Positions 3,020 through 62,946 of a stretch of 64,000 bases of DNA are shown in pieces (the stretch's first letter is position 1; the number at the start of each line of letters is the position of its first letter). The position numbers and the translations under genes were made by a program. The stretch is from Thuidium tamariscinum (lineage: Eukaryota > Streptophyta > Bryopsida > Hypnales > Thuidiaceae): contig OX344752.2 of assembly GCA_947034885.2 (NCBI GenBank), positions 30,796,386-30,860,385 on the forward strand, given 5' to 3'. The notes under the pieces were generated by a model. It saw only the letters and a program-made list of their open reading frames with translations. It was not told where the DNA came from and did no database searches.

Positions 3020-3031
<12 letters not shown>

Positions 3032-37299: not shown

Positions 37300-37303
37300 T
37301 TAA

Positions 37304-38585
37304 TTTTAAATGACGCAAAAATTTTAGAGAACGTGCTCATCACTATTATACAATTTGTCTAATTTTTAAATTACTTTTAAAAATATTTCACTATTTCAAA
37401 ATAGACCCAAACTAAAAGTCCAAAATGCCATTTTGGAGGTTTTCAGTACTATTGAGTCCCTTTTTTAATGATTTTGAGCTCAAATTTGGATAAAATGGTC
37501 TTCAAGTAGACTTGTAGCTATATAGAGAAGGAATTTAGGATAAATTATTTTTATGTGATGTAGTGGTGTACAAGTCCATACAGCGAACCTCCTTCTATGT
37601 CTTTTGGGAAACATGTGAAAAATGATTTTGGTGATTATATTAATGAATAACCACCTCCATAAAGTTTTTGAAAATTATAAAAAATTTGTTTTTTTATAAA
37701 TTTAATTTTCTATATTTTACTAATTAGAACAATGAGACATATATTTCCATGAGGTTTGGTACTTCTCAAATTCTCCTACTTAGAGATTTCCTTAACAAAT
37801 ATCCTTTCATGTTTTTTTTCATCTTCAAGGTGTTTACAATAGTCATATTTTTTTTTAATTCAAAATTATTTTAATAATTTTAAAGTACTCCACTACTCCC
37901 CAAAAAAGAAACCAGATGCAACAAATGGTTCAAAGGTTTAAGGTATTTGCCCACATCTCTTTCCATTCTCATACCAAAATTAGTCGATGATATTAAATTG
38001 TGAGTGCTTACTCATATTTTAAAATACTATACTCTATGAGCCCATTAAAACTCTTGTTTTGTTCTCTCACTTTGAAAATGAATTTCAAACTTTTAACTTC
38101 CACAATTTATAGTGAAGTACCATAGAAATAGAATTTACATGTGAAATTGTGAATAATAAGGAGTAGCACTTTCGCTGTCATATGATGGTACAACATTCTT
38201 GTAGAAATTTTTAATTCCAATTCATGATGTCCATTGGTCAAACAATAATTATTATAAACATTCAAGTTTGCTTATGGGTGCTTTAGTGTGTTACACAATG
38301 TTTATAATTTAAAATATATCTTCACTTTATTATAAACATTTTGTTTCAAATTTCTAACTATTATAGGAAATTGAAATCATCCATTCTTTGAAGTTGGAAA
38401 TAGCGCACAACCTTGGTATTCAACAATTTTTCCACATCTTTACAAAAGACTCATGCACATCGAAATGACAAAACTTAATATTTTCTATTCATTTGAAGGA
38501 AGTGACATCTCAAAAAGTAGGCCTACAAGGCTACAACCAAAAACCGCCAAGAAGGGTTTTTTTAGTAGTTTAATAGGTGCTTCCT
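37304..38585. other. 3' flank of the minus-strand gene; gene-free
   Basis: AT-rich. The part nearest 38585 is the expected 3' untranslated region of the minus-strand gene. Nothing else was recognised. Confidence 0.4.
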
Positions 38586-40076
38586 CTATTGCTCAAAAAA
38601 ATCACTCTCTTTGGGTTCTGGCCCCATCTTCTGTATATCTACACGTTTAGCGCCTTTAGCTGTAGTACGTAGGTTCCAATGCCGCCATGCACTCTCAAAA
38701 CGGATTTCTGACTGCAATTTTGACGACTCTTGTTGTAAGACAAGAGTTTTCTGTTCGTGCAGTTTAACAAGCTTTAGAAGTGTTGATAACTCTTCTGGTG
38801 TGTTGCCATATTCAGGAGCTATAGCTGAGACATCTAATGTCGAGGCACATTGTATTGCAGCATTGTAGTACTCTCTTTCTTTTGCATCTACTTGCAAATT
38901 GACCCCTCTCCTTTCATTCTGCACCCGCCCACGTTCACGTTCCAAAATCTTCATTTTCTGTTGAAGAACAACACACTCATCCATTGGATACAAACGACCC
39001 TCTGCTTTCTTTTTCCAGTAATTATCTCTGCTTCTCTTCAAAGTAGCAAAGCGCGAGTCGTTTTCCGAGATGCCGTTTTGTAATATCTTCAACTCTTCTC
39101 TCAACCCATGTACCGGAGCTGCATTTGATGAAGTTGATAAACGATAGTTTCGTATTTTTTGGAGAGCTTCAATTTCCCCCTTTGTTTCTTGCAAACCAGA
39201 AATTGCACTTTGTATTTTAGCGAACAATACATCTACATCGTCTTCAAAGTCGCTTCCACTTCCACCGCAGTGACCCACCAAAACATTGTGGTCTACTTCC
39301 ATAGGTTGTACTGCCTATGTACGTTGTGTGCCTTCATTGTGGATATTTTCACCAACTACAAATTCTTCAACCTTCTCTTTTCCCTTGTTGGCAATTTCCA
39401 CTTCCAAGGCCACCTTTCTTTCTTCCATAACATCATCTTCAGTGTCGCTTTGGAAATCATATCCATCATATTCGTGGGTATGCTCATCTGAGCTAGAATT
39501 TGGCGACCACGCAATTTCGGCATTAGAAACGGCCAGCCTTCCCAATTTCACAGGCATTAGTGTGTTCTTGACATCTGCTAATGCAACTTCATTCACAATC
39601 GATGTTTCTTCAGGACGATCTCCGATGGGGTGCCCCTTCAAGGTACTCCAGTCCACGTTCTTCTTGAGTATGCATTCAGCATATACCATTTGGACAAGAT
39701 ACAAAGCGAAATTGTCATTTCGATAAGGCTTAGGCTCATCATACAACCTCGTCCATACAGCTAGACATCTTTGCTTGAAAGCCTCATTGGTGCAATATCC
39801 AAGATTTGCCTTGTTTTGCGCCAAGTGTATCTTGTGACGCCATAGCGGAAACAACTTATCAATGTGGCACCAATCCACGTATTTGTTTACCGTTTCGTAA
39901 CTCCAAGGCTCAGGTTCTGCTCTCCAGCCTAAAAAAGCCTTTATCTTTGGATGCAAAAGCAAAGGCACACGCTTCTTGCGACTTTTTCCACCCCTCTTAC
40001 GACTCTTGTCACGAACCGCCTTCTTCTTCAATGCAAGTGCTAGTTTACTTGGGGCAGGTGGAGGCTGGGCATCCAT
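38586..40076 (-). pseudogene. WCHIDKLF-family protein, one in-frame TAG
   Basis: The gene reads from ATG at 40076 to TAG at 38586. A basic N-terminus is followed by the shared domain: FLGW, EPEPW, WCHIDKLFP at about residues 69-77, NKANLGYC, QRC, LVQMVYAE, VDWSTLKG. Then come an acidic stretch (DTEDD) and a long coiled-coil region. A single TAG at 39317-39315 splits it after ...EGTQRT. Both halves are in the same frame and the downstream half still codes for over 230 residues, including a C-terminal TPEEL...AWRHW region that has a counterpart at the end of the 56480 gene. There is no RING. No frameshift is visible. Function is unknown; the coiled coil suggests an oligomer or scaffold. Confidence 0.75.
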
Positions 40077-40358
40077 AATGATCAATTTGTACGTAGAATG
40101 CTGAACTATGTACTTTCTCTAAACTTCTAAGAGTGTAAGACTAAGCTAGTACTATAAAAGTGTAAAATCCTAGAATCGTTGTACTTCACATTTACAGAAG
40201 TCTTTCCATTACAAAAGATGTACCTTAAACTATTCACATTTACAAAAATGTTTACATTTACAAAAAATCAATCTTCTATAGTACTGGTGATGTAGTGTGG
40301 GTGAACGGAGCAATACGGAAGACCAAAAGTTCAAAACGAACCAAAACTCCTAACTCAT

Positions 40359-40402
40359 GGGCACGCAATCAGCCACGTCTAGGTGGGTGATTCTCAATGC
40401 GC
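40359..40402 (-). promoter_or_regulatory. 44-bp shared promoter block, copy 1
   Basis: On the minus strand it begins GCGCATTG, continues TCACCCACC, and ends with GTGGCTGATTGCGTGCCC. It aligns without gaps with 46200-46243 and 56317-56360. It lies between the last island unit and the ATG, 283 bp upstream of the 40076 start. In all three loci the last repeat unit (ACCCGCA-TCGCC) sits 11-12 bp before it. It is presumably a core promoter or transcribed leader. Confidence 0.75.
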
Positions 40403-40585
40403 TGAGAAGGAGTGGCGACTGCGGGTAAGGCGACTGCGGTATATACCCGCAGTCGCTTAGGGGCGAGTGCGGGTCCACCTGAGAGGCGACCGCGGGTACA
40501 ACCACGAGGGGCGACCGCGGGTCCTGGAAGAGAGGGCGACTTCGGGTCCCAAAAGACTGGCGACCGCGGCTCTGGCCTTCGTGGC
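40403..40585 (-). repeat. GC-rich island 2
   Basis: About eight units of GGCGACYGCGGG on the plus strand, meaning CCCGCRGTCGCC in the direction of the minus-strand gene. One unit contains a palindromic GGTATATACC (about 40438). The island ends abruptly at about 40585, just before a TTAA-family element. Variants such as GACTGCG and GACTTCG are single-base changes of the core. Confidence 0.85.
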
Positions 40586-40603
40586 TTTCTTACTTTTATC
40601 ATA

Positions 40604-42177
40604 CCCCTAAATGCCCAAGGCACCCTAATGTAGTGTCAAAGACACTTTGAAGTTCATGAAAACCTTACCAAAAGTTCATTTTCAATGGTTTATGTTTTTG
40701 GAAGGCTTTTTTCGAAGTCTAGTTTTACCATCAATAATCCAATTTTGAAAATGAATGATTATGATTTTTCTATTCAAAAATTAGTTCAAGGGTATCCATT
40801 GCAATCTTGACTTTCCATAGTATTAAAGACTCCTAGAAATACACTAGATCTTAGTGAAAAACTCACACAAGAAATTCATTTAAAAAAATTATAGAGTACA
40901 TTTTGAGAAGCCATAAATTGATTGTGATTATGCTTGTTAGGCCCCTACACCTAGTATTTTTTTGGTGACCACCTTTTTAGATTTGACATGCAAAAAGAAA
41001 GCTCAAAGATTTTCATAGTTTCTACACCTTCATGATCAAACATTACAATCTTTCAATCCATAAGTGATATACTTGTGTTTTCTTTTTCTATGTGATCTTT
41101 AACATGTCTACTTCAAATTTCTAAAGTTTCAATTAACCCCTAAAGGTTTTTGACTATGTTTCCACCAAAATCTAGAACTGTAATTTCTAATACGAGTGCA
41201 ATTTTTTTGAAAAAAAAGGTTTTTGACATATTCCACCGTGGGCTCTTGTAGTTAGGTGGTTGGAAAAGATACGCAAAAACATTCAGAAATTTCCACCATG
41301 TAGACTGCAAGACATTAACCTTTGAAGTAGCAAAAATCTTTTTTTTAACCCTGCAAAAAAACAAGGATTATGCTCTGCACAAGGTAACATTTGTATGAAA
41401 AAATACTCAAAATGATGGTCACTTTGTGAATTCATTTTAAAATTCAAGTTGGCTATATGTTAAAAAAAATTCAAATCATTTGGAATTGTATAACACATAA
41501 TTATGAAAAAAATAGTTAGTAGAAAGAAGTAGGAAATGCTTGAAAATATTAAATTGTGAACTATTTATTTCAAAAATTAAAAATGTCAATCCCAATTGTT
41601 GAAATATTGTAATAAACAATCTTCACCCAATGTTTTAGTTTTTTTCCAAAAATATTAAAAATTGAATTAAATACAAAACTTCAACTTCTTTGTAGAGTAA
41701 AGATTTTATATTTACCCACAAACTAGCCAAAACTAAAATTCCTCATTACTTTTGACTCATTTATCAAAATGGATCGAATCAAAGCTTTCTACATAGGAAA
41801 AAACATAGTACACTATATTCAAAAAATTTATTTTAGATAAAATTAATTTTCAAGAAGTTTTTTTTGCTGCCTAGGCTGCCCGCATTTCAAGCAAAAAAAC
41901 ATATCATGCCATAACTCTTTAACTGTGTGGTCTAAAGTTATAAAAATTGTTGGGCCTTGAAGCTACTGCTCGGACACATGTTTTGTGAAAATTTTGAAGA
42001 AAAACAAACAAACTCCATTCGTAGTGAGCTACCCGAAATTGCTATTTTGCGAAAAAAACGCAGTTGAAGGCTTTAGGTGTTAAAAGAAAATTTATTCAAA
42101 TTATGAAGAATGTTGTATCTTGTTCCAATTTAGAGCAAATTCTAAGAAGTTCGAAACAAGCTTTAGTCATTGAGGGG
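40604..42177. mobile_element. Family-A TTAA element carrying a nested family-B element
   Basis: The left end is CCCCTAAATGCCCAAGGCAC; the right end is ...CTTTAGTCATTGAGGGG followed by TTAA (42178-42181). The left TTAA is decayed to CATA. It aligns over its length with the solo element 53464-52827 (opposite orientation), apart from the nested insertion 41137-42079. Without the insert it is about 630 bp. No ORF. Confidence 0.75.
41137..42079. mobile_element. Family-B element nested in family A, with clean TTAA duplication
   Basis: TTAA lies at 41133-41136 and 42080-42083. The ends are CCCCTAAAGG and, opposite strand, CACCTAAAGC. The uninterrupted target is seen in the related family-A copy at 52921-52924, where the sequence passes through a single TTAA. 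This is direct evidence for TTAA-specific insertion with a 4-bp duplication, diagnostic of piggyBac-type transposition. It is 943 bp and non-coding, and related inside to 58428-59349. Confidence 0.85.
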
Positions 42178-42181
42178 TTAA

Positions 42182-44346
42182 GCTTGGATGGAAGTCGTTG
42201 TACTTCTCAAGCATACTTATTGAAGTTCTTATATTCAAGGATTACATTTTGTGGTATTAGGGTACATTTTTTAAATTAGAAATGCAAAACTTTGTTAATT
42301 GTTTGACCAACCAAAAATTGCATTCAAATTTGGAATAGAAAAATGAAGTCCTAGAATAAAATAACACCAAACTCCCAAAGAAAAATAGCAACATCCTATT
42401 CAATCCAATTTGAAGAAATTAAGAAAATTTATTTTTTATTCCAATTTGAAAGTTTATCCTAATTTCAATAATTTAGGAAATTTACATCATTGAGTATTTA
42501 ATCACCATTTGAACTTTGGATCTATTAGTATTTAGTATAGTCTATTGAATTTTCTATCATAGAATAACATAAAAATTCATCCCATAATATATGCATATAA
42601 GGAATTATCACATTCTCAGAGTTTCTTTTTTATTTGAAAAAAATTCACAAAAAATTCGAAAATCCTTATGACAAAAAAAATACTTTTGAAAAAATATGTG
42701 TATAATACTTGATACAATTGTAATTGCAATAATTCACTAAACAATGTGAAGAATATTGAAGTTTGATCAAATAGTCATGATAGTATTTGTTCATTTATCC
42801 TGAAATGCCCACTGAACTTAGAAAATTTACTATGATTTATTTTAAAACTAAGTGATAAAAAAGAAAGGGTCTGTTTAGTTTTTTTTAAATTATATCATAT
42901 GCAGGGCTTCTATATGGCCCATCAAATGCTACATATCATTTTTAATATTAATTAGGTTGTAGTGAGGAGAGGTTCCTATCTATCTAAAGGTATTACTAAG
43001 AAATAAATAAAAAAATTGATTAAAGCCCAACCTCCCAACCATGACTTCTTCAGTAAGCTCCAAAAAATAAGTTAAATTCATTTGATCACTCACCCTCCCT
43101 ACACCCCTATTTGAATTTTCAAGTGCATGGTATGGCATTTGGCATTTGATATGGGAGATATGCCAAAGTCTATATACATATCCATCTAGTATAATATGCC
43201 ATATTTGTACCCGAATTTATATTTCTATCATAAGTAATTGTATAATAATGAAAATGGCATTCCATTTCTTTGTATATCCCCTATATGTGTACATAGTAGA
43301 AGAAAGGAATTTTTTTTGAAGAATGGCATGAATACATTGAGAACAAATTAGAGACTTAGATTTCATATATAAGATAGCCTTATTTTTTAAATGTGGATGG
43401 ATTTATAAAAAGCCATAGGAATTTGAATAGACGCTCTTCATAGTTTTTAAAAAGAAATAAAGTCATCTTAAATACAATAATTAAAGTTAAAAGCCTCACA
43501 TCACAAGACATCTTAACTTAGGTCTATACCTTAAATGAAAAAGAGTGATCCCATTAAGGCAATCAACCAATTTATCGGAATTGTCCAAATGTATGGTCTA
43601 TTTAGATCTAAATAAATAGGCAATTTTATGTTCATTTGATGTATTATATGAAGTTGTCTTTTCATAGCTAAACAAAAGGTCTTGATTTAGACAAAAATAT
43701 AAACCTTGGATGACTTTTCAAAACCAAGCAATTGCAAAAATGCTCAATGCAAAATTGGAGAGAGAAAATTAGCCAATCAATAACCACTTTATAAAAAACA
43801 ATATCCTTGATTAGTAAGCAGCAAGAGGCCAATAGTGATTAGTTGAAGTATATAGTGAATGGGCATAGCCAAGTGAAAATTATGTTTTTCCAATATACGT
43901 CACTGAATTGCAAGGCTTTGAAATCACTCTTTCATTGATCCCATCCTTATCAAAATTCACGCATATATTATAAATTATTTATAATTGCACTTGGCAAAAA
44001 TTGAGAAATTCATCTTCTGTGAAAGTTTGAGATATGGTCTCAAAAATCTTTCTGTCTACGGAAAAAAAGAACTTCTAATCTTTTATGTATGGTATCTCAA
44101 AATTTACATTGTCAAAATCTAAAAATATTGGAAAGACTAGTAGACTAATTTAGTAATGATGATGGTAGGATTTCTCAATTGATTCTGCAAAAAATTTAAT
44201 ATAATTTCAATTTTAATATGGCAATTTGGAGGTAGTTTTGGAAAAAGGACCCTTTAGACATTTAGGATTTAAAGATTCGCCTTGTTAGGATAAAATATAA
44301 AAGTCTATGATTATACCACCAATTGTCAAAATCCTTTTTAAACATT
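42182..44346. other. Gene-free AT-rich stretch
   Basis: No credible ORF or bounded repeat was seen. The region just before 44347 contains 'ataaaatataaaag' (44290-44303), TATA-like, but this is expected by chance in such DNA. Confidence 0.45.
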
Positions 44347-45054
44347 ATGTTTCATTTCCCTACTACTCAAGAGAAAAAAAAATTGATGATTTTTTGTTTT
44401 CGAAGTCAAAAAAATAAAAAGCCAGAAAAGCCAGCTCAATCCATTGCTTCAGTCCGTCTAGCCTTGTTCCATATAGATGGCGACGGTCCTATTGCCACGC
44501 GAGATTTTTCCGAGGGTTGTGTGAGATTGCCGAGGAAAGTCACGAAGAACCCCACAAGGCCACAACCAGCGGGAACTCTTGAGGGAGAGGCAACTTCAGA
44601 CCCTAATGGAGCGGGAGCTTATAAGGTAGATGGAGAACTACCAAGAGATTTTGACCAGGTCAGTGTCAGGGATCAATTTTTGCAGTGGCGTACTCTGTAC
44701 TCCCGGATCTTACAGCATTATCAAAAACTCGAGAAGAGGGGTCAGTTGCTTGGTAATCGACCTGACTTGCAGGCAATGAAGCAGATGAATGAAGAAGGAA
44801 AATCTAATGAGTTTCAAAAGTTTGGTCACGTTCCCGGAATTGTAGTCGGTGATCAATTTGAATTTTGGTCTGAAATGTTTGCCGTTGGGTGGCACCGGCA
44901 AGTGCAAGGAGGGATTGCATGGGTTGAAGATCTAGGGGAGAAGGTGGCTTGCAGCGTGGTGATCTCAGGTGGTTACCGAGATGATGATGACCATGGGGAG
45001 ACAGTCAAATACACTGGCCATGAAACCAAGAAATCAAAAATCAATAAATCATAG
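44347..45054 (+). pseudogene. Truncated SUVH-type gene fragment with SRA/YDG domain
   Basis: The frame opens at ATG 44347; the part resembling a known family begins after 44421. The middle (VRDQFLQWRTLY...LEKRG...DLQAMKQMNEEG) matches the helical stretch before the SRA domain of plant SUVH proteins. It is followed by the SRA/YDG signature GHVPGIVVGDQFEFW, VGWHRQ..GGI, and ISGGYRDDDDHGE.VKYTG. SRA domains bind methylated cytosine and, in SUVH histone H3K9 methyltransferases, recruit silencing. Here the domain stops half-way: after YTGHE the frame runs into basic residues and a TAG, with no second SRA half, pre-SET or SET. No splice donor suits continuation. It is probably a captured or duplicated fragment, although a short SRA protein cannot be excluded. 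Confidence 0.7.
44401..44420. repeat. 20-bp direct repeat, left copy
   Basis: CGAAGTCAAAAAAATAAAAA. It matches 45730-45749 with one mismatch and brackets the SRA fragment and the convergent ORF. Possible long target-site duplication or repair microhomology. Confidence 0.6.
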
Positions 45055-45175
45055 TGACGTTTCCAACATGCGCATGAAAACTTGTATTACTTTCAAAGGT
45101 TCAAACAAACCATTTCCATTACAAGCTCCATGTACCATGAATATCTAAACACCTAAGTCTACATTCCTTTAATTT

Positions 45176-45661
45176 CTAAGGCTTGTAATCAACGTCTCCT
45201 CTCACCTCAGCTCCACTACTATGACCTCTTGAATCCCATTCCGAGTCTTCTTCATTACTTGTGCTGTCCATACTATCGGATGAAGACTGTAGAGCTCGCT
45301 CTTTTCTTCCGGATATTTGCTTTGATGCAAGCGATCTCTTGCGTCTACCCTTCTTTTTCTCTTTCACCATGTCTCTACCTCCTAGTGTAGACTTCCCAAT
45401 TCCTTGTTCAAGACCATTAACCGGTTTCACTTTGCTTTGTGAGAAAGGTTCACATACATCAAGGGGGGTTCGACCTAGACTTTGCCGCTTCGATGGTGAT
45501 CTTGCAAAGGCCTCCAGTATTCTTTTATTTCTAGCTTTCTTGGACTCTTTCATTGCTGGTTGTCTTGCTTTTGATCCGTTTGGAATGATGATCTCATTTG
45601 CGACCAAAAAAAGAGATCGATCCAATGACTTCACCGAACGTAGACCAAACATGGACTCCAA
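45176..45661 (-). CDS. Lys/Arg/Ser-rich hypothetical protein, convergent to the SRA fragment
   Basis: The open frame ends at 45176, 120 bp from the stop of the SRA fragment. The ATG at 45661 is the first in frame, but the frame stays open upstream to about 45750, so an earlier exon may exist. The product is very basic with clusters such as KEKKKGRRKR (nuclear-localisation-like) and a Ser/Asp/Glu-rich C-terminus. Codon pattern and length suggest real coding origin, since the opposite strand is also open but gives a less protein-like sequence. No family recognised; a nuclear or chromatin role is only a guess. It may be a fragment like its neighbour. Confidence 0.4.
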   Translation of the reverse strand: MESMFGLRSVKSLDRSLFLVANEIIIPNGSKARQPAMKESKKARNKRILEAFARSPSKRQSLGRTPLDVCEPFSQSKVKPVNGLEQGIGKSTLGGRDMVKEKKKGRRKRSLASKQISGRKERALQSSSDSMDSTSNEEDSEWDSRGHSSGAEVRGDVDYKP

Positions 45662-45729
45662 CGTTTCATCTTCTTGTGGATCCTTATTTCCGTTGCGTAA
45701 ACTACCGAGACCACCTAAACTTGCATTGC

Positions 45730-45749
45730 CGAAGTCAGAAAAATAAAAA
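45730..45749. repeat. 20-bp direct repeat, right copy
   Basis: CGAAGTCAGAAAAATAAAAA, the partner of 44401-44420. The block between is 1309 bp and less AT-rich than the outside flanks. Confidence 0.6.
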
Positions 45750-45924
45750 ATTCATTTCTTAAACTAAAATATCCTATTTAAAAAGATTTGTGATTCAAAA
45801 GTATTTTGGTTTTTTCGAATAAAATTTTTAAATAAAATTTTATAATGCAAAAGAAAACAAAAGATTAGTTTCTAATCTATTTGACAATTCCTAACTCTTT
45901 TTTTCTATGACCTAGTGAAGCCCA

Positions 45925-46199
45925 GACGCGGTCGCCCCAAGAGACGCGGTCGCCCCCAGAGGCGCGGTCGGCCCCGAAGAGGCGCGGTCGGTCCCCCAGA
46001 GGCGCGGTCGCCCCCCCCTATCCGCGGTCGCCCTCCACCTACCCGATGTCGCCCCTCCACAGAGCCGCGGTTGCCCTAAACCTACCCGCAGTCGCCTCCA
46101 TGCCGACCCGCAGTCGCCCCTCTCGATCCGTGGTCGCCTCGCACCCGCTGTCCAATACTTAAGCGTTCTCCATTACCCGCAGTCGCCACTCTTGGCCAT
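45925..46199 (+). repeat. GC-rich island 3
   Basis: A run of units of the form RGACGCGGTCGCCCC and ACCCGCAGTCGCC, all in the sense of the downstream kinase gene. Early units have the intact core (CGCGGTCGCC); later ones show CGCAGTCGCC and TGGTCGCC, single transition changes. The last unit (ACCCGCAGTCGCC, about 46175) stands 12 bp before the 44-bp shared block. Confidence 0.85.
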
Positions 46200-46243
46200 G
46201 CGCACTGTCTTTCACCCACCTCTGAGTGGCTGAATGCGTGCCC
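46200..46243 (+). promoter_or_regulatory. 44-bp shared promoter block, copy 2
   Basis: It begins GCGCACTG, continues TCACCCACC, and ends with GTGGCTGAATGCGTGCCC. It is identical in spacing to the blocks of two WCHIDKLF-family genes although the gene here is a kinase. It lies 91 bp upstream of the ATG at 46334. Confidence 0.75.
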
Positions 46244-46333
46244 GTTGGTCCAGGTTTATTTTCTTGGGGGCGGACTTTTTGCATTTTTCTCCTACGAAAT
46301 TAGAAGTTGGTGTTATTTCTTTGAAGGAGCACC

Positions 46334-47914
46334 ATGTCCAATCCACGTGAAGGCACTAGCACGAGGCGGATGTCAATTTGGGATCTAGATGATCCTAAGC
46401 ATTTTGAAGTCCCTATAGCTACAGGCGTGACAATTGGGAGTGCAACCGAAACCAAGCCAAAGAAGCCTAGGACAGCTAATGAGAAGGACCCGACGTACCC
46501 ACCTCCAAGTTATACAAAGTTTGCATATGAGGTGTCCTTACAATGGTATGCAAGAAAAAGTGTGCAATTTCTGGAGGCAAGCTATTTCAGAGATCCCTCG
46601 ACAGGTGCTCTAAAATTGGTGGATGATTTGGAGGCTAGGATTTTAAGCAAGTGCTATGAATCTGATGATTTCAAAGACGTGGATTTGACATACAATTCAA
46701 GCCTTCAACGTTGGCTTACCGACACTGTTCAGTCTATAATTTTTAATACCAAGAGATTGATGACTGATCTTCGACCACAAGTGGCAAGGCAACCACTAGA
46801 TGATGAAGCAAAGTAGTTTCGTGAGAAGATGGAATGGTGGCAAACAACTGTGAAGAAATTATCAAAGTCTGGATCAAGGGGTTTCAAGTGGAAAAACGAT
46901 GCTGTGAAGGCTGCATTTGCAAAAGATGGTGGACTATGTATTACTTGGATACCACCTTCAGCAAAGGTGGAGCCCCTTAGTGGATTCTGTCGTAAAGGTG
47001 GGCATGGCAAGGTGCGCAAAGTGCGTATTTTAGGGTTGGATACGTTCCCTGAATATATCACTTTAGCTAGGAAAATGCCAAAAACCAAGAACTTGCACGA
47101 TGCAAGGGTGGAACGATCCGTAGAAGCCTTGGTATGTCCCCTAAATCATGCTGGCATAATAAAGTTTTGTGCTATGAATTCGAAAACCATGGAGTCGTAT
47201 ACTCTATGGTGGAATGGAGGTCATTTGGGTGAATTGCTCGATTTGAACAAGAAGGTGTCACCAATCGTGGAATGGCACAAGGTGAATCAGATCAGACAAT
47301 TGCCTGAGGAGAAACAAAAAGAAGTCAGCCTTTTTCGAAGGCACAAGGCCAAATTAGCATGGGCTCTTGTGTACGTGACTCATCTTATGCATCAGTCATT
47401 GGTGTTGCACAACGACTTGTCTCCAAGGAATATATTGTTGCATTTTCCTGATTATTCCAATGAGATCATCAACATCGGTATTTGTGATTGGGGAATTGCA
47501 AGTCATATGGATGAGAAAGCCCCATCACACTATGGATACCGTACCAATGAAGAGATGGAGAGACAACAACTAGGGCGTTGGTGGGTGGCTCCAGAGTTGT
47601 TCTACACATTTGGGCCACAAAATTCCAATACAAGCCTATCCATTATGCAAGCAACGCATCGATATACCGTGCAATCGGATTCATATTCTATTGGAAAATT
47701 GGCAAAAAGCATGAAGATTGAGTGGACTGGCGACTTTGATGAAGACATCTTCAAAAATCGAGATGCATGTAGGTACTTTGCCTTGAAGTTGGATCAATTG
47801 ACTAGAAAAGATCCAAAGGACAGACCAACGTGTACGGAGGTCGTAAGTTTGCTCATGGGGCCTCCATGGTGCATGAAACCCCCCGAATTAGTTTTCCGTG
47901 ACTCACCTCTGTAG
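46334..47914 (+). pseudogene. Protein kinase with N-terminal extension, one in-frame TAG
   Basis: The gene starts at ATG 46334 (context ACCATGT) and ends with tandem TAG TAG at 47912. An N-terminal extension of about 200 residues is unrecognised. The kinase domain follows: glycine loop GKGGHGKV-like (about 221-226), LARKM with the probable ATP lysine (about 247), catalytic loop HNDLSPRNILL (HND instead of HRD, with Asp and Asn kept, about 359-366), ICDWGIAS (DWG instead of DFG, about 385), and WWVAPE (about 399). These changes keep the catalytic residues, so the fold was probably active. TAG at 46814-46816 interrupts before the kinase domain after ...DDEAK; the frame then continues undamaged for over 360 codons. 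An internal ATG at 46829 could start a kinase-only product. Substrates are unknown. Confidence 0.8.
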
Positions 47915-48545
47915 TAGTGAGTGTATGAGGGAGTATGATTTAGTAGAGAGTATTTTAGTACAAGGAAGCTAATGGCCACATTGTGTGCCTTTCATTTTGT
48001 AATAGGATTTATGTGTATATAAAAATATTTTATATTATGAACAATGTGTTCACACTACTAAATCAAACATATTGAAAGTTGAATGAAAAAATATTTGATT
48101 ACTTGGATGAATTTCCAAATGTTTGAAATTCATATGTAATTTGAGTTATTGAGTATTAGACATGCGGGCTATCAAATTATTTTATGGTGAGAATTAACCA
48201 AGTAAAATTTGTAGTTTAAGATAGTAAATGATGTAGCATTGATTGCATTTGTCATTTACGATTTGATACAAAAATTTGAAAATCAAATCATCGAAGTCAA
48301 ATCTTTCTCTGAAATAATGAATATACTTTTGTGTCCACTGAATTATTCAAACAATTGATTTTCTGTGCCACATTTTCGTAGACAATATCAATTTTGATTT
48401 CTCTTAAGAGACTTCTAAACAAAAAATTTCACCTCACACAACTATTTCACTTTCTAATGTTCATTGAATTATGGAAGAAATCCTCTTCTTCCAATGTACT
48501 AGTAGGTCGTGGAAGTCTCTTATAAGTCTTTAATCAATAAATTAC
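47915..48545. other. 3' flank of the kinase gene
   Basis: AT-rich with no ORF. It probably contains the 3' untranslated region. Confidence 0.35.
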
Positions 48546-49200
48546 TAAATGCCCAAGGCACCTAACTTTGGTGTTTGCATAATTTTGAAGTTAAATTAAA
48601 ACTAACAAAGTTGTTATTTTTAGTGGTTCTTATTTTTTGGAAAGTCTTCTAAGAAGTCTTATTTTAATGTCAACAATCCAATTTAGAAAATGATTGACAG
48701 TGATTTTTCTATTCAAGATTTTGTGCAAGGTTAATCAACTACCCATTACATTCTTCACTTTACGTAGTATTGAGAGTTTTTGAAAATGAGCCTCAAATAC
48801 GCTTATATGCTCAATTTAGGAGAAAAATGCACGTTCAAAATTCATTTAAATAAATTGTAGATTAGATTTTGAAAAGGCATAAATTGATTGGAATCATGCA
48901 GGTTAAGCCCTTTAACCTCGTATTTCTTTGGTCACCAACTTTTCAAATTTTACTTGTGAAAACAGAATATAAAGACTTCACATCACTTTTTATTTATGTC
49001 TTGTTGAAAAATGTACTTGAATTACAAACTTCAATTGTATAGGAATTTATAGACTTCAATAAGGCTACTAATTTTAAATTAGAAGTATATTTGAGTCATT
49101 TTCATCTAATATTATTTCATCCTTGGTAGATGACTTTTTTCAATTTTTGCTTTAAACAAATGTTAGAATGGTATACATGCATAGACCCTTATAACCCTTT
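48546..49200. mobile_element. Degenerate family-A TTAA element
   Basis: The left part reads CTAAATGCCCAAGGCACC, and the interior (48600-48960) aligns with the family-A copies at 40604 and 53464, for example 'tttttctattcaag' and the block 'aattgattggaatcatgcaggtt'. The terminal bases have decayed and the right end is unclear, so the end coordinate is approximate. Confidence 0.5.
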
Positions 49201-50290
49201 AGGGAACAACTTTTATTTTATTTTTTGGATGCTGCATCTCCAATTGTGGTGTGATGTTTTCAAATTTTGTTGAATTAAAATAAGAATAGGGTCATAGGGA
49301 GATTCATAGAAAGATTGTTAATATTAAAATGATTTTTTTCCAAATTACCAGTCCATTGATTCCAACAAACAAGAGCGGCTCTAAAGTTTGTTGCAAAGAA
49401 GTGTAAGTAATGAACAACAAATACATGCAATGATTTAATATTTGTAAGACTATTCAATCTCAAGGGCTACAGTGAGTGGAAGAAGTAGCTATATATGTAT
49501 GAACAAATGTAGGATGCCAAATAATCATTTTGATAAAAATTACAATTTGATTTTAAAATTTTATATACTACAATATATAGAAAATGATATAGGGTGTTTT
49601 TAAATATTGTAGGGTACAAATTAAAGGTGTGCATTAGAAAAAAATTGACTTGGATCTTGGGGTATCTCCTTTAATATTCCATTATTGAACCAAAACTCTT
49701 AATTAGTGTTGTTATTTTGTGAGTTGGTCTGGTGGTCGCATCATCAATTAGTCTCGTCGTTAATTACCACGTCACTAATTTGTAGATATTAGATAGGTTG
49801 TACTAGGAATGTAATACTAGTCTACCAATCCCATTCCATCTTTCCTTACAGTGAATGTGTTAATAGTCTCAAAAGTTTCATGTCATGTTTGCAATTAGTG
49901 TATTTAGAAGAGGAATGTGTATTTAGAAGAGGAATTTCTTAAATAAAAATTTTCTATATATACTTAAAGTATCCGATTCGGTGTATGTTTAAGGAGAATC
50001 TAATTAGGTGTATGTTTAAAAAGGATCTTATATTCTGTAAAAATTGGAATTGACAAAACGAGATATTATAAGAGGATCAATTTTATACAAGCTAATGAGC
50101 ACAAGTGCGATACTAATTATATCAATTGCACTTCATCACAATAGATTATTTTCATCTGGCTTAGTGGTTTGAATATGTTCGAATCTTTAATTTTTTAAAT
50201 GGATTAGTTGATATCATGTAATACCACATTTTATTTGGCAATATTCAAACTGAATTCAAAACATTAACTTATATAGATTTGGTACAAGGA
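49201..50290. other. Gene-free AT-rich stretch
   Basis: Nothing recognisable, apart from a short near-duplication around 49905-49935 (GTGTATTTAGAAGAGGAAT twice) and another around 49980-50010 (ATTCGGTGTATGTTTAA and a variant). Confidence 0.4.
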
Positions 50291-51058
50291 AGTCCTTAGA
50301 CCTGGGAAAACATGATGAAAAAAAGGAAAGTTCATTTGCTAATTTGAAACACCTCCATCATGAAACATTTATATCTTTCAATCCATAAGAGATATCGTGT
50401 ATTATGTTTTTCCTATTTGATCTAAGACATGTCTACTTTTTATTTGTTGGATGACTTATAGCAAAGCATAAGAGGGTTTTTGAAATCTATATAAGGCCCT
50501 TAGAGATAGACATGCACACCTATTTAATGAAGACAAAAACTAGTAGTTGAAATATTGTGTGAAGTAAAAGTAGAGACTACAATAACAAGGCACTATTACC
50601 AAATATTAAATTTGGATAGTATAACATTATATCGATGGTTGGAAAAGAAAATCCACTAGTGGAGTCAATGTACAATACTATATTATTATCTTAATGGTTG
50701 TACAAAATAGTGTTCCTGATTGGATAGTTTGGTGTCATCTTCATGTCCTAAACCCAAATTTTAAATGACAAAGCTTCATCATGGTCTCCGTGATCCACCC
50801 AATGAAAGCTATTGTCACATGGAAGTACACATTGGAAAAAAATCTTTTCCAATGAGCACGTATAGGGAAGTAGTCATCCTCAAGGAGAATATTTAAATAC
50901 AAAAGCACCCTTCCAAACACCTATTAGCGGCCCTCTTTAGAATTCAAAAATCCTCTAAGGCTCTAATGAATGGATTAAGGTTACCAAAGGATTGGTGTAT
51001 TGTTCAATTATAACTATTTTCCTAAAACTATTAAAGAAGTACTCCGGACATTTACATG
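50291..51058. mobile_element. Family-A remnant, paired with 55690-55955
   Basis: The part 50300-50460 aligns closely with 55690-55860, and 50970-51058 with 55880-55955. The right end ('ggacatttacatg') corresponds to the family-A right end. The copy near 55.9 kb is shorter by about 500 bp in the middle. Together with the island that follows, this makes a duplicated module. Confidence 0.55.
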
Positions 51059-51062
51059 GTAA

Positions 51063-51886
51063 CCCCTAAATGCCCAAGCCTTTTCAATTTTTATTTATTT
51101 TTTCATATTTTTCAAGTGTATTTTGAATATGAAAAAAATATATGAGCTTGTAGTCATCCCTAGTGAAGCAAATTGATTTTCTTCCCAAATTATACCACAT
51201 GGATGTTTAAAGAACTTGTTTATTAATAAGTACACAAATTTTGAGTACAAAATTGCATAGGAGTTGTGAGATTATAACAAGAGAGTAGTACATCTTTTAT
51301 ACTTTGTATATTGCTCTTTCCCACAAAGTTTCTCAAATTTGCATATGAATTGTGTTGGGGGTTGGAGGGGACATAATTAACTACAAAGAGTGTTAGCACA
51401 CTAAAATGCATTTAAAAAAAAATTAGTTTCACATGAAAAGCTATTGAATTCATTAGACAATCCACCTTGCAATTGTTGAAATGCAATTATTTTTTTAAAG
51501 TAGAATTTGGAAATAACTCCAAGTCAATAGTTGTATGATTAAATTTTCAATGTTGAATCATGGAAACACTTTCTTCTTTCCATTCTAACCATTCTCAAAG
51601 CAAATGGATATGTACTATTTCTTAGATCTCAAATCAAGTGAAATTGCATAAATCTAGGAAATGAAGTAAAATTGGCAAGCTTTACACTTCACTTATGACA
51701 CATGTATGCCTTTGAAGACCTCTCAATAATCAAATATATACTTTTTACAGTGAAAAATGAAAGTTCTCAATAGTTAACCCTTAAAAGTGTCTAATTTTTT
51801 TTAAGGTTCAAGGAATGTAACTGCCTATTCAGATATGGGCCTTTAATTTCAGATCGACCATATATGGTCGGTTGGGTAGGTAGGGG
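51063..51886. mobile_element. TTAA-type element inserted at the edge of island module 4
   Basis: It is flanked by GTAA (51059-51062) and TTAA (51887-51890). The left end is CCCCTAAATGCCCAAGCC; the right end on the opposite strand is CCCCTACCTACCCAACC. The empty site is visible in the related module at 55956-55959 (TCAA), where 'catttacatg' runs directly into 'tatcttcaatactctt'. It is 824 bp with no ORF. Confidence 0.65.
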
Positions 51887-51890
51887 TTAA

Positions 51891-52440
51891 TACCTTCAAT
51901 AATCTTGGTTGGATCCAGCCGGCTGCCTCCATATTTTTAGGTGGCCAAATATTTTGGGGGGGGGGAGGGGGGAATTTCAAATTTATTCCTTTCCTTACCA
52001 GTAGGCGCGGTCGCTGTTCTTCTGGAGGCTTTTTAATTGTCGGACCCGCGGTCGCCCACCCGAGGTCGCACCCAAGGGCGGTCACTGTGTCCCAGGATCC
52101 CCGCCAGGACATGAGGTCGCCTCGATGCGAAGTCGCACCCACCCGCGGTTGTTGTGTTCCATGAGAGTGGAGTTTTGAACTTCCCGCAAGGACCCGAGGT
52201 CGCCCCTACGCGCGGTCGCAGTGCCAAGATCGGGGCTTCTGAACTTCCCCGCACGACCCGCAGTCGCCACCACGCGCAGTCGCCCACCCGAGGTCGCTGT
52301 GTGCCAGGATTCGAAGGACTTGAACATGGCGCCAAGACCCGAGGTCGCCCTACGCGCTGTCGCGCCAACCCACTGTCGCCCACTCGCGGGCGCGTGTTCG
52401 CAGTGCCAGAATCGGGGGTTTAGAAATTCTATGCCACACG
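51891..52440 (+). repeat. GC-rich island 4, with no gene behind it
   Basis: The left flank (51891-52010, with 'ttggatccagcc' and 'taggtggccaaat') is homologous to 55960-56060. The island proper (52000-52440) has many units such as ACCCGCGGTCGCC and ACCCGAGGTCGCC in plus orientation, interspersed with non-repeat words (for example 'gtgccagga'). It lacks the 44-bp promoter block, and no ORF of credible coding character follows before the next TTAA element at 52827. Overlapping ORFs are composition artefacts. Confidence 0.8.
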
Positions 52441-52826
52441 GTCGTGCCTTTATTTTTTCTATTTTTTTTTCTTTTTGAACAAATGGAGAAAATTCCATTG
52501 GCATAGGAACCAGTACATTCAGACTAGGGGCATCAAGCCTTTTGCAGAATTAGGCAGGATTACTCGCCTACCTCAAATGGGTTGTGTTCCTATTTGGAGG
52601 TGCTAGAATATGATTTGACTTTTCATTATTTGAAGAGTATTGATCTTATTCAAACAAAAAGGGGAATTTAATATTTAAAATCCTAAGGCCTGAAATTAAA
52701 ATATTTAACCCTTTTTGAATTATTTGCCATGAATCATTTTTTTCCCAACTCCGTACAATTAAGACATAACTTATAAGAGACCATGTCTTCAAGTAGTGAT
52801 AAACAAATGAATACAAAAGTGTTTAA

Positions 52827-53464
52827 CCCCTGAATGCCTAAGGCTTACTTTGAATTTCTTAGAATTTGCTCTAAATTGGAACAAGATGCAACATTCTTGA
52901 TAAGTTGAATAAATTTTCTTTTAATTGAAACTTTAGAAATTTGAAGTAGACATGTTAAAGATCACCTAGAAAAAGAAAACACAAGTATATCACTTCTGGA
53001 TTGAAAGATTGTAATGTTTGATCATGAGGGTGTAGAAAGTTTGAAAATCTTTGAGCTCTCTTTTTGCATGTCAAATCTAAAAAGGTGGTCACCAAAACAA
53101 TACTAGGTGTTAGGGCCTAAGAAGCATAGCCACAATCAATTTATGGCTTCTCAAAATGTAGTCTAAAATTTTTTGAAATGAATTTCTTGTGTGATTTTTT
53201 CTCTAAGATCTAGTGTATTTGAGGCTCATTTCCAAGAGTCTTTAACACTATGGATTGTCAAGATTGCAATGGGTACCCTTGCATTAAAATTTGAATAGAA
53301 AAATCATAATCATTCATTTTCAAAATTGGATTATTGATGGTAAATCTAGACTTTGAAAAAAGCCTTCCAAAAATATAAACCACTAAAAATAAATGTTTGG
53401 TAAGGCTTTCATGAACTTCAAAGTTTCTTTGACACCACATTTGAGTGCCATGGGCATTTAGGGG
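52827..53464. mobile_element. Complete family-A TTAA element
   Basis: TTAA lies at 52823-52826 and 53465-53468. The terminal inverted repeats are CCCCTGAATGCCTAAGGC and, opposite strand, CCCCTAAATGCCCATGGC, 15 of 18 matching. It is 638 bp with no ORF. It aligns in reverse orientation with 40604-42177 and carries the empty target (TTAA at 52921-52924) of the nested element there. Best-preserved reference copy of the family in this window. Confidence 0.85.
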
Positions 53465-53468
53465 TTAA

Positions 53469-55680
53469 AAAACACACAATTCTTCATTTCTGCAGACATC
53501 AGAACACTTGTAGATTATTGTGTTGTTTTTATTTCATTTTTTTTAATTTAGATTTTCATAAATACTCTTGCAAATCTTCTGTACTTAAGAAAATAAAGTA
53601 TGTTTGAAATTGTGAACAAACTTTTGAATTCAAGAAATTACCATTCCAAAACGATGTGAATAAATAAGTAAAATAAAAATCATAAATAATAATTACAATC
53701 TAAACATACTATATTGAACGTAAAGAAAATTCTTGTAAGAAGATAGTTACAATTATTCTATTTGTACTTTATGTTACAGTGATTTTAAAGGTTCAAATTT
53801 AATTGAAAAATAAGTTATGCTGTCATAGTGATAGTGTACCAATTATCTAACTATAGGGATATATTATGTAGATAATCACTTTTGATTGAATTATGTGATT
53901 AAATTGTTATCCTATATTTCATTTTATAGTATATCATTATAATTTTCAAAATTTGAATGAACCCTTGATCCCTTTAGGAATTAAACCTCAAATCTTTAAA
54001 AAATTTACCTTGGCTAACCTCAAAGTTTACAATTTTCATTTACACATTTCTATACTATCTACTTTGAGATCTTATAGTTAGGTAGGTGACTAAATCGAAT
54101 TTTAGACTTAAACTACACTTTGTTTCCAAAGATGACATTTAGTAAGATTTTAGTAAAGTATAGTTATGAAATTATAGTGATTAATTGTACATTTGTACTC
54201 ACTTTTTCTAGAAAATAAAAAATATTTTTTGAAAGATAATCTTTCATGATAAATTCTTTTTTTTCCCAAGGGATGAATTGCATTCATTGTTATCAAATTT
54301 CCAAACATGAAGGCTCTACTTGAGATAAATTTATGTACTTTAGATGAAAAGGTGGATTTGCATCCATTTTCAAACATTCATCCATGACCATAGATGTAAA
54401 AGAACTTCATGATCTTAGTAAAGATTATTTTTTGCTATTGGTTAAAAGAAAGATACTTGTAAGAAGAAAGAATGAAGAACTCCTCACTTCTTTACATGGT
54501 TGCAAATTTGAAAAGATCCTATTATAAACTTGTATGAATGAGAAATATTACATGTATTGAATACATTTTTAATCCTTCAAGGATGTTGAGGACATTTTTT
54601 GTCCTTCAAATGATCAACTGAACTTTGTATATATTGAAGAATGGATGATCTTCACACAATATTTTCAATGTAACTTCATTGACGAGCGCTATAGCCACAC
54701 TATTCATTTGAGTTCAAGACATTTAAAAATAAATAAGTTTATATGGGATTGTTTTGAACCCTAGAAATGGTACATTGTCTAATGCATTTCATTACTTTTA
54801 ATTCTTTTTCTCTTGGGACTTGATTTTGACAATTTGAAAACTTTCTTTTGATTTTGACAAAAACCAATAAATGAAGCTTATGAAATTTAGTTTCTACTAT
54901 TCCCTAAAATATAGAAGATCTCCTTAGATTAGTGAAGTTTGAATTTGAATATGTACAAGCACATTTCAAAATATAGAGTGGTACAAAAGTTAATTTACCT
55001 TGTAATTTTCTACACTATAATTTGCTTCTACTCTTGAAATTTTAGATTTTTGAACCAAGATTTATATTTGATATGGATTTCTCAAATTTTATTGTTAAGA
55101 ATATATTAGTAATATTGATTTTACATTCCATCCAACTAAGCACAACATAAATGACCAACATCGTTAGCGAAGGGGTCCCAAAGAATTGGTAAGGATATTT
55201 TCTCATGTTTCCCTCCACAACATCATGGCATGATTTTTATTTACATGAAGACTAATTAGGGGAGGGAATGCGGCATGAATGTGTTTCTCATTCTTTTAAC
55301 CCGTAGAATTCGGAGGCACATAAATTTGATTTTTCCTCAATTGCAATGCAAAATAGATTTGATTGAAATTCCTATTTTTACTAGTTCATATTAATGAGAA
55401 AATTACTAAAGGATGTCTAGTTTAAGCATCACAATACCGATCTAGAAATGATTGGTTATGTTTTTTGGGTTGAAGATTTACTGTAAAGATGTCTATTGCA
55501 ATCTTGCCTTTTTTAAGTCCTTAAGTAGGTATCACGGAGATGACTTGTAATTACATTAAAGGCTTAAGGAAAAATGAACTGAAAATTTCTTTTCTATAAT
55601 TTGTACATAGAAGATTCGGAGAAGGCAAAAATTGATTAGAATTATGTATATGAAACCCTCTGCCTTTTTTTCCACTAACT
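53469..55680. other. Gene-free AT-rich stretch
   Basis: No bounded element or credible ORF was seen. Base runs and short ORFs look random. Confidence 0.45.
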
Positions 55681-55689
55681 ACTTTTTTA

Positions 55690-55955
55690 GATTAGACCTG
55701 GGAAAACATGATGAAAAGAAGAGAAGTTCATTTGGCAATTTGAATACTTCTATCATGAAACATTTAAATCTATCAATCCATAAGAGATATCGTGTATTAT
55801 GTTTTTCCTAGTTGGTCTAAGACATGTCTATTTTTAATTTGTTGGATGACTTTTAGAAAAGAATGGATAATTTAAGCTTATGAAAGGATTGGTTTATTGT
55901 TGAACAAAAACTATTTTTCTCAAACAATTTAAGAAATGATTTGGGCATTTACATG
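55690..55955. mobile_element. Family-A remnant preceding island 5
   Basis: It aligns with 50300-51058 and, more distantly, with the interiors of the family-A elements (around 40960-41100). Its right end 'gggcatttacatg' is followed by TCAA, a decayed TTAA, directly before the island module. Confidence 0.5.
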
Positions 55956-56059
55956 TCAATATCTTCAATACTCTTCAGTGGATCCAGCCAGTTGCCTCCA
56001 AAATTTTAGGTGGCCAAATAATTTTTGGGGGCAATTTCAAAATCCTGAATTTTCTTACC

Positions 56060-56316
56060 AGGAGGCGCGGTCGCCCCACGTGCGGTCGCTGGAGGAGGGA
56101 AGTTTGAACTTCCCGCCCGACCCGCGGTCGCCCCACGCGCGGTCGCTGGAGGAGGGAGTTTGAACTTCTCGCCCGACCCGCAGTCGCCTGACGCGCGGTC
56201 GCCCCACGCGAAGTCACCCCCTACCCGAGGTCGCCTCGACCTGTACCCGCACTCGCCCCTGTGCGACTTCGGGTGCATAAGCAGTCGCCCCCACCCGCAT
56301 TCGCCATTTTCGCTTT
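56060..56316 (+). repeat. GC-rich island 5
   Basis: Units CGCGGTCGCC alternate with 'ggaggaggga' and 'ttgaacttcccgcccgac', giving a longer repeat of about 70 bp duplicated at 56060-56190. Later units vary (CGCAGTCGCC, CGAGGTCGCC, CGCATTCGCC). The orientation is that of the downstream gene. The last unit precedes the 44-bp block by 11 bp. Confidence 0.85.
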
Positions 56317-56360
56317 GTGCACTGCTTGTTACCCACCGTGAAGTGGCTGACTACGTGTTC
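56317..56360 (+). promoter_or_regulatory. 44-bp shared promoter block, copy 3
   Basis: It begins GTGCACTG, continues TACCCACC, and ends with GTGGCTGACTACGTGTTC. It is the most diverged of the three copies; its differences are mostly transitions. It lies 120 bp before the ATG at 56480. Confidence 0.7.
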
Positions 56361-56479: not shown

Positions 56480-57907
56480 ATGGATGCCATGAAGAAGAAG
56501 GTGAAGGCCAAAGGAAAAAAACAAAGAAGGCAACGCCACATCCTTCTTGATCCTAATGCGATGGCTTATCCAGGTTGGGATAGAATTCAAGGTGATTGGA
56601 CCACGACCACTTGTAAGGGATTCATTCAGTGGTGTCACATTGACAAGCTTTTCCATCATTATCGGCACAAGATTCATGTGCAATCGAATGTGGCAAACCT
56701 TCATTCGTGCACTCACGATGCATTTGTGCAACGATGTATTGAAGTTTATCGGTACTTGCACAACACATAGACCGTGCCGAGAAATGAGGTTCAATTGTAT
56801 CTGTGTGAGATGGTGTATGCAGAGGTCATTCTGAGAAGAACGGTGGATTGGAGGACCATCAAGGGATCGAAGATGGCCACCATTCCAACAACCAAAGACA
56901 TTCCTAGAGCGGGTCCTTCCCCCAATCCAAGAGCAGGGCTAGGAAAAAATCTTTTCATCAAAAATGTAGTGCCTAATGATGAGTATCAGTGGTCACATCA
57001 CGCGAGTTCGGATGAAGAGAATGAACCATTGAATGAATTATTGGATATGGCCAAGATGGAAGAGCCACCTACAAAATTGGAAGAAGTGGTGGCGCCTCTT
57101 CAAATGCCATTGCTTGATGTGGAACAAATGTCGGGCATTGAAGAAAAGCTTGAAGTGGAACAAATGTTGGGCATTGAAGAAAAGCTTAAAGATACAATTT
57201 ATGAAGACACGAAAGAGTATTACAATGATCATCTCAAGCTACTTCTTCAAGACTTGGAAGAGAAGCAGAAAGAGTTAAAGACTCTACAGGACGAGGCTAT
57301 GGAAGATTTGGGTGATGGGGTTCCAACCCTTCTAGCCCAAATTGAAACTGCTCGAATCCAATTGTCAAAGCAACATGAGGAGATGAAGAACTTGGAAGCG
57401 TTTTATCTTAGCTTCTATGGTTCTCAAGATGGAACTTCTAGTTCTACGGTCGATAACCCAATTACAAAGGAAAGGCTTGCAAAAGCCATGGAGGACTCCA
57501 AAGAAGAAGATGATCATTGTGACCGTGAGAAAAGAGGTCTTGAAGAGGCACAATTGAGGTTGACGCACCTTTGTGAGATCACGGACAAAGCCCCACTTGA
57601 CCGTGTTGTTGACATGTACGGTTGGGGAGACTTTTGTACACAACATGAGATGACCCCCTTGGAAGTAGAGGAATTGAAGAAGAAATTAGTTGCTTCTCTT
57701 AAGGTGGAAAATGAGTTGCAAGAGAAAGTGGATAAACAAAAGACAGTCCTGGAGATGCAGAAAGCAACTAAGACAGCTTGGTTACGTGGAGAGTGGTGGA
57801 AACATGACATTCTATCCAAGCTCAAGAGTGAACAGAAGGTGGCTTGGTCCCAAATATTAGCTAAGAGGCAGAAGAGAGAAGAGAAGGGCAAAAAAAATGT
57901 TGAGTGA
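56480..57907 (+). pseudogene. WCHIDKLF-family protein with coiled coils, one in-frame TAG
   Basis: The ATG at 56480 is followed by a Lys/Arg-rich start and the family domain: YPGW, WCHIDKLFH at about residues 51-59, NVANLHSC, VQRC, LCEMVYAE, VDWRTIKG. TAG at 56768-56770 lies in the middle of that domain; the same frame continues immediately (TVPRNEV, matching FVERNEV of the 31781 gene). After an acidic segment come coiled coils, then a TPLEVEEL...AWLRGEWW region corresponding to the end of the 40076 gene, and TGA at 57907. There is no RING. A 12-residue internal tandem duplication lies at 57119-57190. No frameshift. The protein role is unknown. Confidence 0.75.
57119..57190 (+). repeat. 36-bp in-frame tandem duplication in the 56480 gene
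   Basis: Two adjacent 36-bp units (57119-57154 and 57155-57190) encode VEQM(S/L)GIEEKL plus one residue twice. They differ at only a few bases, so the duplication is recent, and its length keeps the frame. Confidence 0.85.
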
Positions 57908-62939: not shown

Positions 62940-62946
62940 TATATAT
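62940..62946 (+). promoter_or_regulatory. TATA-like box of the transposase gene
   Basis: TATATAT directly after the island, 226 bp before the ATG at 63172. In the 31781 gene the TATA-like element is likewise at the gene-proximal end of the island. Confidence 0.45.

Follow-up and report, generated by a model that had tools for sequence, protein, structure and literature searches.

Candidate promoter-proximal leaders shared by cargo genes of a giant hAT-type transposon in the moss Thuidium tamariscinum

Transposons of the hAT superfamily, among them Ac/Ds, Tam3, Hermes, and Tol2, have CAGGG-type ends, short inverted repeats, an 8-bp target-site duplication, a transposase with a hAT dimerisation region, and repeated motifs near their ends. 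Autonomous hAT elements are usually a few kilobases long and carry one gene. Here we describe an element that shares these features, in a stretch of 64,000 nucleotides from the Thuidium tamariscinum genome (contig OX344752.2, positions 30,796,386 to 30,860,385 of the forward strand; hereafter, the window). The element differs from Ac/Ds, Tam3, Hermes, and Tol2 in its size of 37 kb and in carrying at least four further protein genes with array promoters of their own and conserved leaders. A preliminary description of the window had drawn attention to three 44-bp blocks, A, B, and C, upstream of genes for unrelated proteins and had taken their sharing to imply promoter capture, exon shuffling, or a mobile cassette. 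We think it probable, at roughly 0.78, that the blocks are promoter-proximal leaders belonging to three genes (A and C, of the WCHIDKLF family, and B, a protein kinase) that one 37.3-kb hAT transposon carries as cargo, together with a fourth gene, D, and a transposase gene. At the level of sequence, this reading is carried by the ends of the element, an 8-bp duplication, an empty-site relative, the transposase domain, further copies, and the close match of the A, B, and D leaders across two old subfamilies.

Three blocks inside one large element

The three blocks align without a gap and are identical at 34 (A-B), 30 (A-C), and 31 (B-C) of 44 positions, whereas, when the window was shuffled locally 50 times by dinucleotide and searched on both strands, the top matches to A, B, and C reached 26, 26, and 27 of 44. 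The similarity is above chance, and the concern that it might vanish under proper alignment statistics did not materialize. A profile built from the blocks themselves scored A, B, and C at 58.6, 59.9, and 54.8 bits in a scan of the window and the next site at 15.9 bits. Counting confirmed the spacings first described: the blocks begin 11 (A), 12 (B), and 11 (C) bp after the last repeat unit of a GCGAC-rich array and end 282, 90, and 119 bp before the ATG, and they do precede two unrelated protein families. In ungapped comparison, the 3' edge of the block is the limit of similarity; 5' of the blocks, likeness extends for the A-C pair only. An Rfam scan of the window returned nothing at gathering thresholds, and a scan of a viral collection returned no exact match to the block core.

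A weaker match had also been described before gene D. The sequence is present (TGGCTGCATGCATTAAC at 31689), and as a 17-mer it has 119 exact copies in the genome, against 0 for the control; these places are called D anchors below. As a match to the blocks, however, it is not significant, as the likeness of the D leader to A, B, and C was equalled by 432, 104, and 1,179 of 2,000 shuffles, and we dropped it as a homologue of the block sequence.

The blocks sit inside a single giant hAT transposon, judged by its boundaries (Table 1). The element spans 31115-68415, or 37,301 bp; the window holds 31115-64000, and the remainder lies in 6 kb of sequence read past the window end. Its terminal inverted repeats are identical at 11 of 12 positions, and GCGAC-rich arrays lie near both ends. 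One definition of hAT elements (PMC6027215) calls for termini that read (T/C)A(A/G)NG and for inverted repeats no shorter than 8 bp, and the element has both; a longer plant pattern from the same source, [T/C]AGNGNNG, is matched at seven of eight positions. The target-site duplication of 8 bp, the usual length for hATs (4 to 8 bp), was found in both of the copies in which both ends were read, the second of which, the C2 copy, is flanked on both sides by CTTGTAGG. The empty site is recognizable because window 8232-9940 matches 29430-31114 and the right flank, 68416-68714, matches 9933-10232 at 92.7%. A long repeat thus occurs twice in the window (1-9940 and 22649-31114), and its second copy is broken exactly at 31114 by the giant element. 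Ends, target duplication, and transposase assign the element to the hAT superfamily.

Further copies resemble the window copy. Identity to the window is about 98% in the C2 copy over 31114-40521 and 40511-42039 and in the C1 copy over 31362-40521 and 40511-42049, stretches that include gene A and its block. Additional pieces match at 94 to 99%. Those of the C1 copy cover the kinase region, 52132-53591, 59162-60163, and the transposase; those of the C2 copy cover the kinase, C, the transposase, and the right end at 68415. The block C of the C1 copy was found in the genome core search.

That search covered 363 Mb in 19 contigs. The block core ACCCACCNNNNNGTGGCTGANTNCGTG occurs at 104 exact places and its reversed control at none, and a variant that fixes one additional position (ACCCACCMNNNN...), allowed up to two mismatches, occurs at 200 places, again against 0 for the control. 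Types, clusters, and neighbors were counted at 100 listed places of the 104, with types assigned by eye from the matched letters, which gave 33 A, 34 B, and 33 C. These places form 49 clusters (15 ABC, 8 AB, 7 BC, 6 AC, and 13 single), joined only where the implied element orientation agreed; that orientation disagreed in 0 of 51 neighboring pairs less than 20 kb apart. A D anchor lies within 45 kb in the expected direction of at least 75 of the 100 blocks, a lower bound since the anchor list used comprised 99 of the 119 places and ended on contig C11. Either such a D anchor or another block lies within 45 kb of 94 of the 100. At two regions of contig C8 (about 20118321-20214825 and 23061824-23174288), several blocks occur at odd spacing and in both orientations, which suggests nested or neighboring element copies.

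One block type before two unrelated protein families could also arise if a small, mobile promoter cassette, made up of an array and a block, inserted upstream of unrelated host genes, and the window does contain one array without a recognized gene (orphan array, Table 1). The order A(-) B(+) C(+), however, is kept in 36 of 36 multi-block clusters, and long stretches of the copies are colinear, although ends around single arrays were not searched systematically. We regard such a cassette as highly improbable. Thus, the idea of mobility behind the sharing holds, whereas promoter capture by separate genes, exon shuffling, and a small cassette are disfavored, because all three blocks fall inside one 37.3-kb hAT and recur in the same order across copies. 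Nor was the block found with one protein family alone elsewhere; the downstream protein was read for the window, parts of two more copies, and one second-subfamily element rather than at all 104 places.

Leader conservation between two subfamilies

Twenty of the D anchor loci were compared with the window and have a common sharp left boundary, at window 31115. The left end reads CAGGGTTTTCTC in one subfamily, D1, and CAGGGTTGTTCTG or a near variant in the other, D2; the 21 sequences (20 loci and the window) divide into 9 D1 and 12 D2, and the C1 and C2 copies described above belong to D1. After one D2 left end come D, A, B, C, and the transposase gene, all with arrays, and blocks precede A, B, and C, where the relative of gene C rests on a DNA match and an open reading frame (ORF). 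The A-type block is present in 10 of the 12 D2 loci, and in the other two, similarity ends earlier.

The subfamilies are old. Fourfold degenerate sites are 46 to 53% identical between D1 and D2, synonymous divergence (dS) is 1.07 to 1.25, and the ratio of nonsynonymous to synonymous divergence (dN/dS) is 0.14 to 0.16 for D, A, and B, in comparisons of 142 to 312 codons each, for which the D2 sequences were truncated at their first stop. Synonymous sites are close to saturation. Such dN/dS values, and the presence of a transposase gene, set the element apart from nonautonomous gene-capture elements of the Pack type, which have no transposase gene and contain pieces of host genes. Arrays scarcely align between the subfamilies, and 100-column rows wholly within the 5' untranslated regions (UTRs) of A match at 43 to 51. 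Blocks A and B, by comparison, are each identical at 39 of 44 positions, and the D leader is identical at 57 of 60 positions between subfamily consensuses, where other 100-column rows match at 41 to 87. High leader identity amid diverged arrays, UTRs, and synonymous sites marks the A, B, and D leaders as islands of constraint.

Blocks of different genes match across the comparison at 29 to 35 of 44, below the 39 of 44 for same-gene A and B. Since same-gene blocks are closer than different-gene blocks, the A and B promoters probably arose by duplication inside the element at a time before the subfamilies separated, and such a duplication would most likely account for the sharing between kinase and WCHIDKLF genes. 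Block C stands outside this pattern.

Comparison of subfamilies bears on two further explanations. The kinase, C, and transposase genes could be separate elements that nested by chance in or beside an element holding D and A. The window is rich in repeats, and gene B is inverted between the subfamilies. Against chance nesting, the same order recurs in the 15 complete ABC clusters, which are spread over 8 contigs among the listed places, and one target duplication encloses everything in both copies with both ends read. We consider nesting very unlikely. The inversion in D2 (locus L040, about 4380-6520, against window 45926-47914 in D1) takes in the kinase gene together with its array and block. 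Alternatively, the blocks could be alike because they descend from the final units of the GCGAC-rich array, directly 3' of which they lie. By eye, the block letters do not resemble the repeat unit; moreover, the arrays hardly align between subfamilies where blocks A and B still match, and the number of units varies among copies, whereas 104 places share an exact core. Derivation from the array is highly improbable.

RNA hairpin or DNA site

Upstream of every gene (D, A, B, C, and the transposase) lies a GCGAC-rich array oriented with the gene, with arrays in both directions at D. The kinase and WCHIDKLF cargo genes use a common promoter design of GCGAC-rich array, TATA-like box, and conserved leader. 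Given the TATA-like box 42 to 44 bp upstream and the usual TATA-to-start spacing, the block would occupy about +12 to +55 of the transcript. The transposase gene has a leader of its own (window 62940-63171; second-subfamily locus L041, about 7600-7790), which is kept between the subfamilies and is unlike the block of A, B, and C.

Within a transcript, the leader may act as an RNA hairpin; within DNA, it may act as a dyad-symmetric downstream promoter element. Eight leaders (A to D of the two subfamilies) are predicted to fold alike, with a lower stem, a 1x1 mismatch, an upper stem, and a loop of 5 to 6 nt. The hairpin motif is found in 8 of 8 leaders, against 18 to 38 of 1,000 shuffles per leader, and 59 of 60 cells are paired in five aligned leaders (counted without D2 block C), against 22 to 40% in slid structures. 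A DNA dyad, however, accounts for much of the hairpin signal equally well. The block could be a DNA element only, whether a downstream core promoter element or a site whose dyad symmetry suits a dimeric transcription factor, with the hairpin as a by-product of the dyad. In keeping with a DNA site, both D1 and D2 retain the dyad CCRC-N5/6-GTGG in A, B, and C, the TATA-like box lies at a nearly constant distance in the window, and RNA covariation is weak. But the D leaders hold a similar fold with other letters, and the 1x1 mismatch is kept while its letters vary (C.C in D1 A, B, and C; C.U in D2 C; A.C and U.C in D). We consider a DNA-only role a serious possibility, at somewhat less than even odds.

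A number of points weigh against the reading of the blocks as leaders of one element's cargo genes. Several concern the hairpin. The covariation score was reached by 26 of 500 shuffles of the 3' letters; two pairs change on both sides, and 225 of 500 shuffles do likewise; and the pair 12-35 is broken in the D2 gene A leader. Folding z-scores are modest, at -0.64 to -2.39, and block C in an 84-nt context loses the hairpin and folds no better than shuffles. The hairpin motif, moreover, was defined after the sequences had been seen, and leaders from one subfamily do not count as independent of those from the other. Others concern block C, which needs an insertion and a loop one base shorter and whose D2 form matches D1 C at 32 of 43 aligned positions and D1 B at 35 of 43 in a gapped alignment. 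Our confidence is lowered by block C, which is without gene-by-gene conservation. The remainder concern the element. The D2 right end was not reached, so membership of its five genes in one element is not proven, and 6 of the 100 listed blocks stand alone. The transposase leader is conserved, yet its sequence differs from that of the A/B/C block. The window copy is decayed, with stops in A, B, C, and the transposase and, in D, within the RING-like stretch. Finally, where transcripts start, whether the TATA-like boxes are used, and whether the blocks are transcribed are all predicted from sequence.

Cargo genes, regulation, and related systems

Coordinates of the element and its genes are collected in Table 1. 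Gene B has a kinase domain (Pkinase, 47.4 bits; cut-off, 31.7), and its motifs HNDLSPRN and CDWG, which we take to be kinase catalytic motifs, are readable; comparison with PDB sequences gave three weak matches to generic kinases. The transposase has a hAT dimerisation region (Dimer_Tnp_hAT, 29.4 bits; cut-off, 21.4), while DUF659 scored 31.1 bits, below its cut-off of 34.7, in a 276-amino-acid piece cut by the window end. Its relatives carry PF04937 and PF05699. A CxxC...H stretch can be seen in the transposase of the window copy, whose first 276 amino acids gave no Pfam match for an N-terminal BED-type zinc finger. Gene D ends at a stop within its RING-like stretch, beyond which the frame runs on, and zf-RING_11 scored 26.8 bits, just below the cut-off of 27. 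A structure model of the gene A protein was of low confidence (predicted local distance difference test score, 56.5), and its single PDB match (E, 2.7) was not useful. In-frame stops are common among the gene copies read, though dN/dS of D, A, and B is about 0.15 between subfamilies, which indicates old selection followed by decay of single copies. Between genes A and B, an ORF at 44311-45054 (plus) encodes a piece of an SRA domain (SAD_SRA, 72 bits) and perhaps was captured or is part of a spliced gene. Part of the orphan array is covered by 52132-53591, which is 96% identical in the C1 copy. Outside the element, ORFs at 12397-16754 have a TIR domain and leucine-rich-looking repeats and resemble plant immune receptors by eye.

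Table 1. Features of the hAT element and its surroundings, in window coordinates
Feature	Position	Strand	Remark
Empty-site relative, TGTGGAAG single	9933-9940		in related repeat copy
Left target-site duplication TGTGGAAG	31107-31114		repeated at 68416-68423, right of element
Left terminal inverted repeat CAGGGTTTTCTC	31115-31126	plus	
GCGAC-rich arrays upstream of gene D	31257-31443, then 31460-31614	minus, then plus	
TATA-like TATAAAT of gene D	31620-31626	plus	
Gene D leader	31646-31705	plus	conserved, 60 nt
Gene D	31781-33586	plus	WCHIDKLF family with C-terminal RING-like finger
Gene A	38586-40076	minus	WCHIDKLF family; in-frame stop 39315-39317
Block A	40359-40402	minus	conserved leader of gene A
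Gene A repeat array	40414-40569	minus	
TATA-like TATATA	40440-40445	minus	43 bp 5' of block A
Gene B repeat array	45926-46187	plus	
TATA-like TACTTAAG	46156-46163	plus	44 bp 5' of block B
Block B	46200-46243	plus	conserved leader of gene B
Gene B	46334-47914	plus	protein kinase; in-frame stop 46814-46816
Orphan repeat array	52005-52380	plus	no block or recognized gene 3'
Gene C repeat array	56065-56305	plus	
TATA-like GCATAAG	56275-56281	plus	42 bp 5' of block C
Block C	56317-56360	plus	conserved leader of gene C
Gene C	56480-57907	plus	WCHIDKLF family; in-frame stop 56768-56770
Transposase gene repeat array	62622-62865	plus	
hAT transposase gene	63172-66408	plus	window part 63172-64000; in-frame stop 64513-64515
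Right terminal inverted repeat CAGGGTTTTCTT	68404-68415	minus	

How the element regulates its genes can be outlined in conditional terms. The GCGAC-rich array may be where a factor encoded by the element binds. The simplest candidate is the transposase, because transposases of hAT elements bind motifs that are repeated in the subterminal regions, and GCGAC-rich units are found here both near the ends and at the promoters. The transposase of the hAT element Herves is reported to bind a short motif near both ends (PMC3143072). The genes and ends of the element would then form one regulon in which the transposase possibly regulates the cargo. We speculate further that transposase-type arrays spread from the ends to the cargo promoters, that a structured RNA leader is read by an element protein, perhaps of the WCHIDKLF family, and that kinase, RING, and WCHIDKLF proteins are coexpressed and aid movement or escape from silencing. 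As a whole, that chain is rather unlikely.

A precedent for an element protein that binds arrays both at the ends and at a promoter is Spm/En, of the CACTA superfamily, which makes a 3-bp duplication and encodes TNPA, a protein that binds repeated motifs close to its ends and promoter. Spm/En serves here as a model from another superfamily, with binding in the moss element itself only predicted. Among relatives of the transposase, those that bear a plant name come from the mosses Physcomitrium patens and Ceratodon purpureus (hAT-like proteins P0139, P0140, P0142, and P0144), at 42 to 63% identity over 17 to 45% of the query. PMC6027215 reports that no hAT was found in Physcomitrella. Open-access literature on giant or large hATs, on cargo, and on moss hATs yielded no description of a comparable element.

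Among other cargo-bearing transposons, fungal Starship elements are likewise giant and have empty sites. Starships are described as having a putative tyrosine recombinase gene (PMC12506042), whereas the moss element has a hAT transposase and an 8-bp duplication; no tyrosine recombinase domain was found among the ORFs given to Pfam, which were part of the element's ORFs. The fungal ToxhAT, or ToxTA, also bears cargo and was once named after hAT, but it is 14 kb long and nonautonomous, has a TA target site, and is likely Tc1/mariner, according to the same source (PMC12506042).

In annotation, cargo genes of such a kind may be mistaken for host gene families whose promoters are curiously alike. 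Moreover, the element raises two testable questions: for what reason a kinase and a RING-like protein are retained by a cut-and-paste element, and whether common arrays and leaders allow a single element to coordinate several genes. Size, gene number, and shared promoter architecture set it apart from the hATs compared above. Ultimately, with 37 kb, at least five genes, cargo under purifying selection between old subfamilies, and a genome-wide presence of 104 block cores and 119 D anchors, the element stands nearer to a giant cargo transposon than to Ac/Ds.

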